Of a stretch of 64,000 bases of DNA, positions 5,251 through 55,754 are shown in pieces. The notes beneath the pieces were generated by a model that saw only the letters and a list, made by a program, of their open reading frames with translations, was not told where the DNA came from and searched no databases. The stretch covers positions 1,385,001 through 1,449,000 of the forward strand of contig NZ_JASERT010000001.1 in the NCBI RefSeq assembly GCF_030027245.1. The letters run 5' to 3'. Origin of the DNA: Asticcacaulis sp. EMRT-3 (GTDB lineage Bacteria > Pseudomonadota > Alphaproteobacteria > Caulobacterales > Caulobacteraceae). Positions within the stretch are counted from its first letter, which is position 1, and each line of letters begins with the position of its first letter. The position numbers and the translations under genes are program-made.

Positions 5251-5259
5251 TGTATTTTT

Positions 5260-5385
5260 AGCTCAGACGCCGCCACCCTGCTTTTTAAGAATGGGCTCCT
5301 CGCATAGGCTCGGGCGGCCATTTCGTTAACAAGCAAGTCGGCCTTGCCAAGATGCGAAAAAGAAAATTATCGCATCTTGTATAAC
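5260..5385 (+). repeat. Dispersed structured repeat, copy 1 of 5
   Basis: Starts with 'agctcagacgccgcc', followed by 'aatgggctcctcgcatag', 'gctcgggcggcc' and 'gtcggccttgcc', and ends in a hairpin with 10-bp arms (5348-5357 and 5370-5379, CAAGATGCGA and its complement). The same core recurs at 36235, 44281, 51232 and, reversed, at 55607. The terminal hairpin ends 61 bases before the ATG of the EgtB-EgtD gene and points toward it. It fills most of the 190-base gap between two genes. Its function is unknown. Confidence 0.75.
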
Positions 5386-29891: not shown

Positions 29892-30698
29892 ATGATAAAT
29901 GCCGTCAGCATGGTTTCCGACCCGTTAAATTTTACCGATTTTCACCGTCATGATGGGGAATTGCCCGAATGGCGCATCGAAAAAGGCTATGTGCCCTATC
30001 CCGAAGCCGTCGCCTTCATGGAGGCGCGCGCTGCCGCCATATCCGCCGGTGAGGCGCGTGAACGGATCTGGCTGGTCGAGCATCCGCCGCTTTACACGGC
30101 GGGCGTTTCGGCCAAACCCGAAGACCTGATCGCGCCCGATCGCTTTGACGTGTTCGCCAGCGGGCGCGGCGGTCAATATACCTATCACGGCCCCGGTCAG
30201 CGCGTGGTCTATGTGATGCTCGATCTCAACCGGCGGCAAAAGGATGTGCGCGGCTTCGTGCAGGCGCTGGAGCGCTGGATCATCGCTACGCTGTGGTGCT
30301 TCAATGTCGAGGGCCATATCCGCGAAGGCCGCGTCGGCGTCTGGGTGGTGCGGCGCGATAAGGGGTACGCGCCCCCTCCGAATGCACCTATTGCATTCGG
30401 CAAGACCGACGGGTCGCCCGAGCCTTTGCAAGGCGCCCGCGCGGTGCCTGAGCGCGCCTATAAAGAGGATAAGATCGCCGCGATAGGCATCAAGCTGCGC
30501 CGCTGGGTCAGTTTCCACGGCATCAGCCTGAATGTCGAACCCGACCTCAGCCATTTCGACGGTATCGTGCCGTGCGGCATCACCGAACACGGCGTCACCA
30601 GCCTGCTCGATCTCGGCCTGCCGGTGACGATGGACGAGGTCGATTACGCCCTGCGCTCCAACTTCGAGGCCATCTTCGGGTCGGTTGAGGTGGTATGA
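29892..30698 (+). CDS. lipB: Lipoyl(octanoyl) transferase with an inserted segment
   Basis: 268 residues. It moves octanoate from acyl carrier protein to lipoate-dependent enzymes. Family motifs: '[16 protein letters not shown]', '[20 protein letters not shown]', catalytic Lys in '[19 protein letters not shown]' and catalytic Cys in '[14 protein letters not shown]'. Between '[10 protein letters not shown]' and '[10 protein letters not shown]' there is an insert of about 30 residues (about 157-190), rich in P, G and A, encoded by palindromic DNA (see 30378-30400). Most LipB proteins have only a few residues there. The reading frame stays intact, so the protein may still work. Confidence 0.92.
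30378..30400. repeat. Palindrome inside the lipB insertion
   Basis: Arms CCGAATGCA (30378-30386) and TGCATTCGG (30392-30400) with a 5-base loop form a perfect hairpin within the extra segment of lipB, which suggests a palindromic repeat inserted in frame. Confidence 0.7.
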
Positions 30699-36151: not shown

Positions 36152-36234
36152 AAGAACACATATAGAACATTACAAAGACGATGCAAGCACCCTGTCGTAT
36201 TCTGGTATAGGCCTATCTATATAGGCATTTCTTT

Positions 36235-36323
36235 AGCTCAAACGCCGCATGGCTTCCTCGCATAAGCTCGGGCGGCCAGTTGGCCTTGCCAAGCGCTCAT
36301 GAGAGAAGATCATAAGCGCTTGG
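36235..36323 (+). repeat. Dispersed structured repeat, copy 2 of 5
   Basis: A short form: 'agctcaaacgccgcatgg', 'ttcctcgcataagctcgg', 'gcggccagttggccttgcc', then a terminal hairpin with arms at 36289-36302 (CCAAGCGCTCATGA) and 36310-36323, 13 of 14 pairs. It lies between the divergent rarA and ABC-2 genes. The hairpin ends 21 bases before the ABC ATPase ATG and so lies in its likely leader. Confidence 0.75.
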
Positions 36324-36344
36324 AATCACCGCACAGGACGACAT

Positions 36345-43038: not shown

Positions 43039-44235
43039 ATGAGAGCCCCCGCCCCCCTGAACCGTTTCACCCTCGATTTCCTCAAGACCGAAGCCGGTTC
43101 CGGCACCATTCTCGCCCTGTGCGCCGTGATCGCGCTCGTCTGGGCCAATTCGCCGTGGGCCGAATATTATTTCAGCTTCATCCACTACCATATCGACATC
43201 AATGTCGGGGCGTGGCGCTTCAATGAAAGCGTGCTGGAATGGACGAAGGAGGGGCTGATGGCCATCTTCTTCTTCGTCGTCGGCCTGGAGATCAAGTACG
43301 AAATCGTGCGCGGCGCCCTGTCCAGTCCGCGCAAACTGGCCCTGCCGGTGATTGCCGCCATCGGCGGGATGGCCGTGCCTGCCCTTATCTATCTGGGCCT
43401 TAATATCGTCGATGGCGGCGATCTGCGCGGCTGGTCGGTGCCGACCGCCACCGACATCGCCTTTGCCCTGGCCGTGCTGGCGATGGCGGGCAAGAGTTTG
43501 CCATCGTCCCTGCGCGTCTTTTTGCTGACGCTCGCCATTGTCGATGATCTCGGCGCGGTCATCATTATCGGCGTGTTTTACAACGCCCAGTTCAACCTGT
43601 TGTTCGTCGCCATCGTGCTGGCCCTGCTGGCGGGCATGGCCTCGCTCAAATACCTGTTTCCGCGCACGCGCATCGGCTTTTCGATGATCTATATGGTGTT
43701 TTTCGTCGCCATCTGGGCCATGAGTCTGGAGGCGGGCTTAAGCCCTTCGCTGACCGCCGTGGCCGCCGCCTTCTGCGTCAGTATCGATCCGTGCCATCCG
43801 GGCGAAGAAGGTATGGTCAAATGGATCGCCAGCGAACTGCACCCTTATGTCGCCTGGCTGATCCTGCCCTTCTTCGCCTTTACCGCTTCCGGTTTTTCGC
43901 TTGAGGGCATGGGGCTGGCCAATCTGATCGACCCGCGCTTTCTCGGCGTCATGCTGGGGCTGTTCGTCGGCAAACAGGTGGGAGTGTTCGCTGCCAGCCA
44001 ACTGGCCATCAGCTCTGGTCTGGCCCGCCTGCCCGACGGGGCCACTGCGGGACAGGTCTATGCCGTATGCCTGTTGTGCGGCATCGGCTTCACCATGAGC
44101 CTGTTCATGGCGGCCCTGGCCTTTCGTGGTGCCGAAGAGGGCTTGGTGGCGGTCAAGGCAGGCGTCATTGTCGGCTCGCTGCTGTCGGCAGCCGGCGGGG
44201 CTGGGCTTTTAACATGGCTCAGCCGTAAAGTTTAA
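43039..44235 (+). CDS. nhaA: Na+/H+ antiporter NhaA
   Basis: 398 residues, about twelve membrane segments. Family motifs: 'FLKTEAGSGTILALCAVIAL', 'GLMAIFFFVVGLEIKYEIV', 'VPTATDIAFALAVLAMAG', and the transport aspartates in 'TLAIVDDLGAVIIIGVFY'. Also 'LCGIGFTMSLFMAALAF'. It exchanges Na+ for H+ across the inner membrane. It starts 9 bases after the acyl-CoA synthetase stop. The last codons and the stop lie inside a perfect 54-bp palindrome. Confidence 0.96.
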   Translation: MRAPAPLNRFTLDFLKTEAGSGTILALCAVIALVWANSPWAEYYFSFIHYHIDINVGAWRFNESVLEWTKEGLMAIFFFVVGLEIKYEIVRGALSSPRKLALPVIAAIGGMAVPALIYLGLNIVDGGDLRGWSVPTATDIAFALAVLAMAGKSLPSSLRVFLLTLAIVDDLGAVIIIGVFYNAQFNLLFVAIVLALLAGMASLKYLFPRTRIGFSMIYMVFFVAIWAMSLEAGLSPSLTAVAAAFCVSIDPCHPGEEGMVKWIASELHPYVAWLILPFFAFTASGFSLEGMGLANLIDPRFLGVMLGLFVGKQVGVFAASQLAISSGLARLPDGATAGQVYAVCLLCGIGFTMSLFMAALAFRGAEEGLVAVKAGVIVGSLLSAAGGAGLLTWLSRKV

Positions 44236-44279
44236 CACTAACCTGCACCTAATTAGGTGCAGGTTAGTGTTAAACTTTA
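44226..44279. terminator. Perfect 54-bp palindrome at the nhaA stop, likely terminator
   Basis: Two 27-base arms meet without a loop at AATT (centre 44252/44253); every base pairs. It includes the last codons and TAA of nhaA and is followed by ATTTT. It runs directly into dispersed repeat copy 3, and a related but imperfect inverted repeat precedes copy 4 at 51173. Confidence 0.8.
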
Positions 44280-44280
44280 T

Positions 44281-44372
44281 TTTGCAGCTCAAACGCCGCA
44301 TGGCTCGCCGCATAAGCGGCGGCGCGCAGTCGCGCTTGCCAAGCTGCGATGAGTCAAAGCATCGCTGCTTGG
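44281..44372 (+). repeat. Dispersed structured repeat, copy 3 of 5
   Basis: 'tttgcagctcaaacgccgc', 'ctcgccgcataagcggcgg', 'cagtcgcgcttgcc', then a terminal hairpin with arms 44339-44351 (CCAAGCTGCGATG) and 44360-44372, 12 of 13 pairs, loop AGTCAAAG. Here the core itself has changed (gctcgg to gcggcg) yet still forms a GCCGC/GCGGC stem. The hairpin ends 35 bases before the selO start. Confidence 0.75.
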
Positions 44373-44407
44373 TGTACTGGCTTGACATAAGCGGCTGCCG
44401 CGCCGAC

Positions 44408-51045: not shown

Positions 51046-51394
51046 GCCCGCTTCTCTTTGACTTTAACTTTTCACCTCTCCCCACATGTGGGGAGAGGAC
51101 GGGAGTTGAGCCACGCGAAAACGACCGGGTGAGGGGCATTCTGTAGGGTAGGAAGAGCCCCCTCATCCGGCCTTATACCAACTTGCGCAGCCCAGAACCT
51201 ATTTGGGTGCAAGTTGGTATAAGCATTATTTGCAGCTCAAACGCCGCCATTTCTTTTAAGAAGAATGGGCTCCTCGCATAAGCTCGGACGGCCAGTCGGC
51301 CTTGCCAATTTGGGATGAGTCAAAGTCATCGCAGATTGGTATTAGCTGCACTCCGACCACCCTCTCCCCGCTGTGCAGGGAGAAGGGAAGCGCT
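51046..51394. other. Gene-free stretch filled with palindromic repeats
   Basis: No coding sequence is convincing here. The stretch contains a 24-bp perfect palindrome at 51075-51098 (arms CCTCTCCCCACA and complement), a 14-bp inverted repeat TTATACCAACTTGC (51173-51186 with 51209-51222), dispersed repeat copy 4, and a second 'ctctcccc' element at about 51362-51390. It separates the 72-residue gene from the convergent esterase gene. Confidence 0.75.
51232..51345 (+). repeat. Dispersed structured repeat, copy 4 of 5
   Basis: 'gcagctcaaacgccgcc', 'aatgggctcctcgcataag', 'ctcggacggccagtcggc', 'cttgcc', then a terminal hairpin with arms 51305-51318 and 51326-51339 (one G-T wobble, one mismatch in 14). 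Upstream lies an inverted repeat (51173-51222). The sequence after the hairpin, TTGGTATTA, is the near complement of the start TTATACCAA, so the unit 51173-51345 is bounded by imperfect inverted ends. This is the only copy without a gene start just downstream. Confidence 0.75.
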
Positions 51395-55466: not shown

Positions 55467-55484
55467 CAAGGCCTCCTGTTGTTA

Positions 55485-55607
55485 CCATGTGCGATGACAT
55501 TAATTCATCGCACATGGCAAGGCCGACACTCCGTTTTAAGAATGGCCGCCCAAGCCTATGTGCGAGGAGCCCATTGTTCTTAAAAAGAATGGCGGCGTCT
55601 GAGCTGC
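55485..55607 (-). repeat. Dispersed structured repeat, copy 5 of 5 (reverse orientation)
   Basis: Read on the minus strand: 'gcagctcagacgccgcc', 'aatgggctcctcgcacata', 'ggcttgggcggccattc', 'gtcggccttg', then a terminal hairpin with perfect 13-bp arms (55505-55517 and 55485-55497, CCATGTGCGATGA and complement). It lies between the divergent kinase and response-regulator genes and ends 18 bases before the kinase start, pointing toward it. Confidence 0.75.
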
Positions 55608-55754
55608 AAAAAGCCCTATCTTCACCGATTTGCCGCACCTCGCAAGCCCGCAACCGGGGCTTGCGCGCAGTTTGTGGACAAGATGGCGAAAGACCCTTGC
55701 CCCCCGGCGCGAAATGGTTGACAAATTTCACTGACGATCATCGCAGGCAGACGC

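Follow-up and report, generated by a model that had tools for sequence, protein, structure and literature searches.

Small palindromic mobile elements of Asticcacaulis with hairpins conserved by shape

The RIME/ABC elements of rhizobia are intergenic mosaics of palindromic modules. The Caulobacter CcrM-associated intergenic repeats (CIRs) are reportedly due to Chen and Shapiro (2003). In the parts of PMC2229807 and PMC10969869 that describe them, CIRs are about 110 bp long and mostly intergenic, and they comprise two hairpin arms and a linker, with a GANTC in the loop of one arm and TA ends. The bacterial MITEs ERIC, Correia/NEMIS, and RUP are tabulated in the relevant part of PMC2229807. The sections of PMC3733652 on REPs give these repeats a fixed tetranucleotide tag and a 5- to 13-bp stem of family-specific sequence, and they present CGTC REPs as common in alphaproteobacteria and lacking a transposase dedicated to them. 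The window analyzed here, the whole 64-kb stretch of DNA from the genome of Asticcacaulis sp. EMRT-3, contains six copies of a dispersed element that is a MITE or palindromic intergenic repeat with its palindromes conserved by shape.

Copies in the window and spread of the family

The earlier note had placed five copies in the window, and all of them were confirmed: the AGCTCARACGCCGC 14-mer has five perfect matches there, which are these five copies, and 10 matches at up to two mismatches, compared with 2.0 expected (sd 1.55). The number of copies nevertheless rises to six. The added one, copy 6, is a short form at 30372 to 30460 on the minus strand; it scores 33.3 bits with the covariance model described below, and its right hairpin, CCGAATGCAATAGGTGCATTCGG, is paired at 8 of 8 positions. 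Gene calls were made with a crude codon-usage caller trained on 31 window ORFs, and by these calls copy 6 lies within an ORF at 29892 to 30698, antisense to it.

The copy that the note had put at 51232 to 51345 (copy 4) is real but longer, being a full-length element on the plus strand at 51176 to 51341 with TACCAA...TTGGTA termini, a left hairpin, a T-rich spacer, the core, and a right hairpin. It is flanked by a TTA target duplication at 51173 to 51175 and 51342 to 51344 on the same strand. Its left hairpin (51176 to 51219) has 12 of 14 outer pairs of the Watson-Crick type, as has its right hairpin (51305 to 51339; 12 of 14 pairs), which carries GAGTC, a GANTC site, in the loop region at 51317 to 51321. 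Three further copies are on the plus strand. Copy 1 (5254 to 5385) is without the left hairpin of the full form and has longer loops in hairpins 1 and 3; its right hairpin (5347 to 5380) has Watson-Crick pairs at 10 of 11 positions. Copy 2 (36229 to 36329) has divergent genes on either side and a right hairpin at 36289 to 36323 (13 of 14), and copy 3 (44280 to 44378) has its right hairpin at 44339 to 44372 (12 of 13), with GAGTC at 44351 to 44355. To the left of copy 3 stands another palindrome of 52 bp (44227 to 44278, plus strand), paired at 23 of 23 outer positions and followed by the T-rich spacer. The upstream gene ends, with a stop at 44235, inside the left arm of this palindrome, which gives the impression of a gene end copied in inverted form. 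Copy 5, on the minus strand at 55479 to 55611, lies immediately upstream of a gene on the same strand, and its right hairpin (55485 to 55517) is paired at 13 of 13 positions.

The earlier note had also expected more copies across the genome and in relatives, and these are abundant. Covariance model R1, built from 17 copies of the Asticcacaulis sp. EMRT-3 genome (hereafter the own genome; 3.32 Mb in 4 contigs), gave 69 matches there at an E value of ≤0.01, or 61 sites once 8 rows overlapping a better match on the opposite strand were removed. At the same threshold, 24 of 25 Asticcacaulis genomes have matches, from 2 to at least 99 each, G012 being the sole one without any. Elsewhere in the same family, 21 genera represented by 37 genomes gave no match at an E value of 0.001. 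Matches reappear in other families of Caulobacterales, in 5 of 16 genomes and, in a larger and shallower search, in 25 of 297 further genomes, where only 13 candidates per genome were scored and negatives are weak. These relatives keep the order of modules unchanged, and some have TACCAA ends. At four such loci (L419, L432, L433, and L435), the related element stands immediately behind tRNA genes. A pattern scan of named genomes agrees with this picture in that, among the matches listed, those continuing into the element are from Asticcacaulis contigs, with few chance exceptions. The scattered distribution is suggestive of losses or of horizontal transfer. A search of plasmid and phage records with one full copy gave no match. 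With Rfam, the window yielded two tRNAs and nothing else at the gathering score, and the five loci gave a single match to a miRNA family at an E value of ≤1, far below the gathering score. No description of this repeat family was found in the literature searched, which left most subscription papers outside.

Two forms and their mobility

The full form is about 135 to 170 bp long and has a hairpin at both ends, TACCAA/TTGGTA termini, and a 3-bp TNA target duplication, while the short form consists of the core and the right hairpin, without the TACCAA/TTGGTA ends. The left part of an element is the left hairpin (in the full form), another palindrome, or a stop codon, and a T-rich spacer follows. 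Next come, in order, GCTCA-R-NCGCC, hairpin 1, hairpin 2, hairpin 3, CTTGCC, and the right hairpin. Hairpin 2 reads CCTCGC-NNNN-GCTCGG, with two conserved mismatches, or takes fully paired forms such as CGCCGC/GCGGCG and CGCGCA/TGCGCG; the four pairs of hairpin 3 are GGGC/GCCC in 88, GCGC/GCGC in 42, and GGCC/GGCC in 33 of 189 copies. The right hairpin has an opening CC and a closing GG, both inside the stem, in every copy counted, and its arms of 5 to 15 bp are almost free in sequence. GANTC occurs in the right loop of 27 of 28 copies in G010, 8 of 8 in G015, and 16 of 46 in the own genome, and in 1 of 44 copies each in G019 and G021, which are short forms. In the window as a whole, GANTC is found 127 times, fewer than the roughly 227 predicted by base composition.

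The loops of hairpins 1, 2, and 3 can hold extra sequence with the stems kept, and such inserts have been gained or lost between orthologues (L328/L340, L332/L337, L463/L523, and L488/L507). Around 1500 to 1640 of L273 lies a fragment of the left half of an element with its hairpin-1 insert in short tandem repetition (CTTAATCAAAGAAGACTGG). Inside one copy of the own genome (L030, 1500 to 1700, minus strand) lies another palindromic repeat, AGAGCAAGATGACTTTAGATAGACTCGTCATCTCGCTCT-like, with GANTC midway; similar sequence stands beside copies in G010 (flanks of L251 and L256), and this palindrome may represent a second GANTC-bearing repeat family.

Target duplication was assessed on 122 copies (57 from the own genome and 65 from relatives), 45 of which could be parsed at both ends. 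The flanks of the full form read TNA-TACC...GGTA-TNA, and the N is identical on the left and right in 39 of the 45 (37 by a cruder parse of both ends), whereas shuffles gave a mean of 14.2 and a maximum of 27 in 20,000. CT precedes the N in 34 of 45 copies; A follows it in 44, and AG in 22. The agreement of N on the two sides constitutes a 3-bp target duplication, and the full form has therefore transposed. No target duplication was found for the short form. With its terminal inverted repeats, target duplication, small size, and lack of a transposase gene of its own, the full form is a nonautonomous transposon (MITE), and both the existence and the mobility of the family are well supported. 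We also considered a preexisting hairpin as the target of insertion and rejected it: orthologous element-free sites are without the hairpin as well as the core (L193/L277, L306/L350, and L344/L379), and the hairpin is therefore part of the element. At L390/L332, the element-free site retains the first bases of the core, which resembles a deletion.

Young full-form copies inherit their arms by copying. Of the 28 copies in G010, 15 have arms that start AATCCAC, 4 AACCCAC, and 3 AGCCCGC, and in G015 all 8 copies start AACGGCGA. The palindrome is therefore not rebuilt at each move of the full form. Scanning 2.2 Mb of DNA for an autonomous element with the same ends and room for a gene gave one candidate, with weak ends, in the window, and solo left hairpins, considered as ends of an autonomous element, proved to be only fragments at the seven loci examined. 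The class of the transposase is something we infer: a TNA duplication is presumably the mark of IS5-family transposases of the IS1031 group, none of which is tied to the element ends here.

Pairing of the hairpin arms and its turnover

The earlier note had observed that the arms differ between copies yet pair within each, and this covariation is real. In 17 copies of the own genome with a cleanly parsed right end, 91.5% of cells are paired, compared with 81.4% in shuffles; double changes are seen in 14 of 27 pairs, compared with 5.9; and the covariation score is 0.278, compared with 0.103. None of 500 shuffles, which keep the relatedness of the copies, reaches any of these three measures, a count that is not to be read as a probability. 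When partners were slid by 1 to 3 columns, only 26 to 43% were paired. Covariation extends to the inner hairpin 3 and, at one or two pairs, to hairpin 2.

Within a genome, nearly every copy has arms of its own: among copies with at least 8 pairs, the first eight arm positions are distinct in 43 of 43 copies in G022, 37 of 38 in G017, 37 of 38 in G019, and 38 of 38 in G021. Arms also change at fixed sites. Between G019 and G021 (mean flank identity, 89.1%; 50 copies each compared), the arms of 21 orthologous pairs are identical in 9, differ by one to three double changes in 5, and differ by single changes only in 3; the hairpin is missing from one member in 2, and at least four double changes were scored in 2. 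The double changes of L367/L403 are an artefact of a one-base register shift, and without this pair there are 13 double and 5 single changes in 149 pairs. At L381/L399, 6 of 12 pairs differ, with pairing kept throughout and the flanks conserved. Between G022 and G017 (mean flank identity, 95.3%; 55 and 57 copies), 32 pairs were kept, L500/L454 being left out as not orthologous; arms are identical in 20 and show only one-sided change in 6. Here 25 single changes stand against 9 double changes in 254 pairs, or 19 against 5 in 244 when L447/L511, whose double changes come from a wrong anchor and are not real, is set aside. The remaining double changes are in copies wholly replaced or decayed, and mismatched copies are common in G017. 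The changes between these two genomes being mostly one-sided, matching is therefore slow, or absent in that lineage; either a single change precedes its match by some time, or matching has ceased in the lineage of G017.

We favor, with a probability of roughly 0.57, the reading that these are small nonautonomous palindromic mobile elements with hairpins rematched as DNA, most likely by template switching. A full-length MITE, moved in trans by a transposase, would insert at CTNAG-like sites and duplicate TNA; older copies, mostly without the left hairpin, would persist in spacers, often behind stops, and drift. A change in one arm would later be matched in the other, and the hairpin would stay palindromic DNA whatever its sequence. 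Matching would come about by template switching between the arms in replication, after insertion, with exchange between copies possibly contributing. For this family, template switching is a proposed matching process; in general, it is known to create and mend hairpin stems, as the pertinent passages of PMC8794818 report. The earlier note had proposed an element that regenerates its palindrome. Rematching fits better, at least in G019 and G021, and that part of the proposal survives, but young full copies inherit their arms.

Exchange among dispersed copies does take place, which raises the question of whether the arms differ through ectopic gene conversion of modules instead of template switching. 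Orthologues can differ by a swap of core variants (hairpins 2 and 3), for instance in L320/L352 and L372/L351; the whole element is exchanged in L466/L518; identical loop inserts recur across genomes; and the arms of L381 are also present at L367 of the same genome. Against such an origin of the arms, copies of one genome almost never share right-hairpin arms, which leaves most of these arms without a visible donor, and we regard this origin as unlikely, if the best placed of the alternatives.

RNA structure is customarily proved by compensatory change, and selection of the hairpins as RNA, in the form of a cis-acting leader, a terminator, or an mRNA 3'-end structure, has to be weighed. A Watson-Crick pair becomes G-U or A-C equally readily by a single transition, and of the two an RNA stem tolerates only G-U. 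In 236 distinct right hairpins from 24 genomes, 1,754 of 1,851 inner pairs are Watson-Crick, 13 are G-U, 30 are A-C, and 54 are other; two other, partly overlapping counts gave 8 G-U and 18 A-C of 1,320 pairs and 4 and 16 of 1,060. A-C thus exceeds G-U (30 versus 13; P = 0.014), an asymmetry without explanation. Dividing the hairpins by the strand expected to be transcribed leaves the result unchanged, with 7 G-U and 12 A-C where this is the plus strand only and 3 and 9 where it is the minus strand only. The right hairpins show no excess of G-U, regardless of the expected strand, and the palindrome is therefore maintained in DNA. Stems of tRNAs in the same DNA have 34 G-U in 600 drawn pairs, although this is a weak control in that the program may draw allowed pairs only. 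Covariation at the DNA level is well supported, and the pairing is kept at that level. Compensatory change is thus abundant but without G-U preference, and covariation alone would mislead an RNA-gene finder on this family.

The position of copies relative to genes speaks partly for RNA. Of 53 nonoverlapping copies in the own genome, 39 are on the same strand as the next gene and 14 on the opposite one, and G021 shows a similar bias (32 versus 15; P = 0.019); there is none in G019 (25 versus 23; P = 0.89), and among the 28 copies of G010 the trend is reversed (10 versus 18), so that a consistent orientation toward genes was rejected. Short forms adjoin stops: in four genomes, the core starts -6 to +8 nt from an upstream stop in 54 of 117, and in 41 of 90 the right end lies no more than 8 nt from a facing gene's stop, the own genome having 4 of 22 upstream and 4 of 8 facing. 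Right ends of full forms are near a facing stop in 2 of 7 copies of the own genome and in 4 of 26 of G010, G015, and G007; on the left, 0 of 36 are near a stop, an unfair comparison in that the left hairpin separates the core from the stop. A role at 3' ends is an alternative reading of the stop-adjacent short forms, and any host role would be a matter of interpretation. One may also guess that, TAA and TGA being instances of TNA, insertion at a stop would spare the gene, although no duplication is seen in short forms. No T-run was seen after the right hairpin. The selection for structure raised by the earlier note is accordingly not supported as far as RNA is concerned, since G-U pairs are not favored, and we rate it a shade below gene conversion.

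The palindrome might alternatively be selected as a DNA hairpin or cruciform, used in transposition or as a binding site, in which case no special mutational process would be at work. The Watson-Crick-only pairing and the retained pairing of the inner hairpins 2 and 3 agree with this, and purifying selection against mismatched DNA palindromes would give the same appearance as rematching. It sits poorly, however, with L381/L399, where half of a 12-pair stem changed without a mismatch, which is hard to attain via separate point mutations, and with the many mismatched copies in G017; we hold it to be slightly less credible again than selection as RNA. It is more doubtful still that the element writes palindromes, the short form laying down both arms anew as an inverted copy at insertion or later. 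Signs of such an activity are the pattern of one palindrome per locus, seen in four genomes, and the arms changed wholesale at L381/L399. In that case the machinery would recognize hairpin shape alone, irrespective of sequence, in the way integron integrases treat attC sites. That a RAYT (Y1) transposase moves these elements as REP doublets we consider highly improbable: one intact Y1 PF01797 gene is present in the own genome (G000 C1:630521-630847, L150), with the element not beside it, and the highest copy counts are in two of the four PF01797-bearing genomes, but PF01797 occurs in just these 4 of 25 Asticcacaulis genomes, G019, G021, G022, and G017 have 54 to 62 matches without one, 8 of 9 PF01797 loci have no core in the flank (one has), and a RAYT is not known to produce a TNA duplication.

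Returning to mobile elements with hairpins rematched as DNA, this family is a natural system for measuring the speed and process by which palindrome arms are rematched: each genome holds dozens of copies, species can be paired at several degrees of divergence, and some loci have the element while others are without it. For annotation, it can be entered as a mobile palindromic repeat found in Asticcacaulis and, in related form, in other families of Caulobacterales.

Comparison with described repeats

Judged by description and not by sequence, the element is like RIME/ABC of rhizobia in being an intergenic mosaic of palindromic modules. As regards REPs, neither the CGTC tag nor an association with RAYT was found. 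A CGTC REP (CGTC tag, 8- to 9-bp stem, 4- to 5-nt loop, and CCA tail) was rejected by eye: there is no constant CGTC foot, and the arms are 5 to 15 bp long and of free sequence. On the features that the sections of PMC3733652 provide, the GTAG/CGTC REPs are similar in being palindromic intergenic repeats, whereas the element has no such tag and has its CC...GG flanks within the stem.

With the MITEs ERIC, Correia/NEMIS, and RUP, as they appear in the table of PMC2229807, the element shares small size, a noncoding nature, terminal inverted repeats, target duplication, and intergenic location. It is unlike them in having a hairpin at both ends, a multihairpin core, a duplication of TNA instead of TA, and hypervariable arms with pairing kept.

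The earlier note regarded the family as new, and it is absent from Rfam, but it is not wholly unlike known kinds, the full form being a MITE with an architecture like that of CIRs. Several differences from CIRs are evident. The elements here measure 135 to 170 bp, compared with about 110 bp; they have a target duplication and a terminal repeat, neither of which is recorded for CIRs in the passages of PMC2229807 that deal with them; their short forms are mostly without GANTC; and R1 has no match in the 21 other genera of the family that were covered, by 37 genomes that may or may not include Caulobacter vibrioides. The likeness lies in the full form, which shares with CIRs, as portrayed in those passages, the two arms and linker, the GANTC in one loop, the TA ends, and the intergenic site. 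Compared by description and not by sequence, the full form thus appears CIR-like in its architecture.
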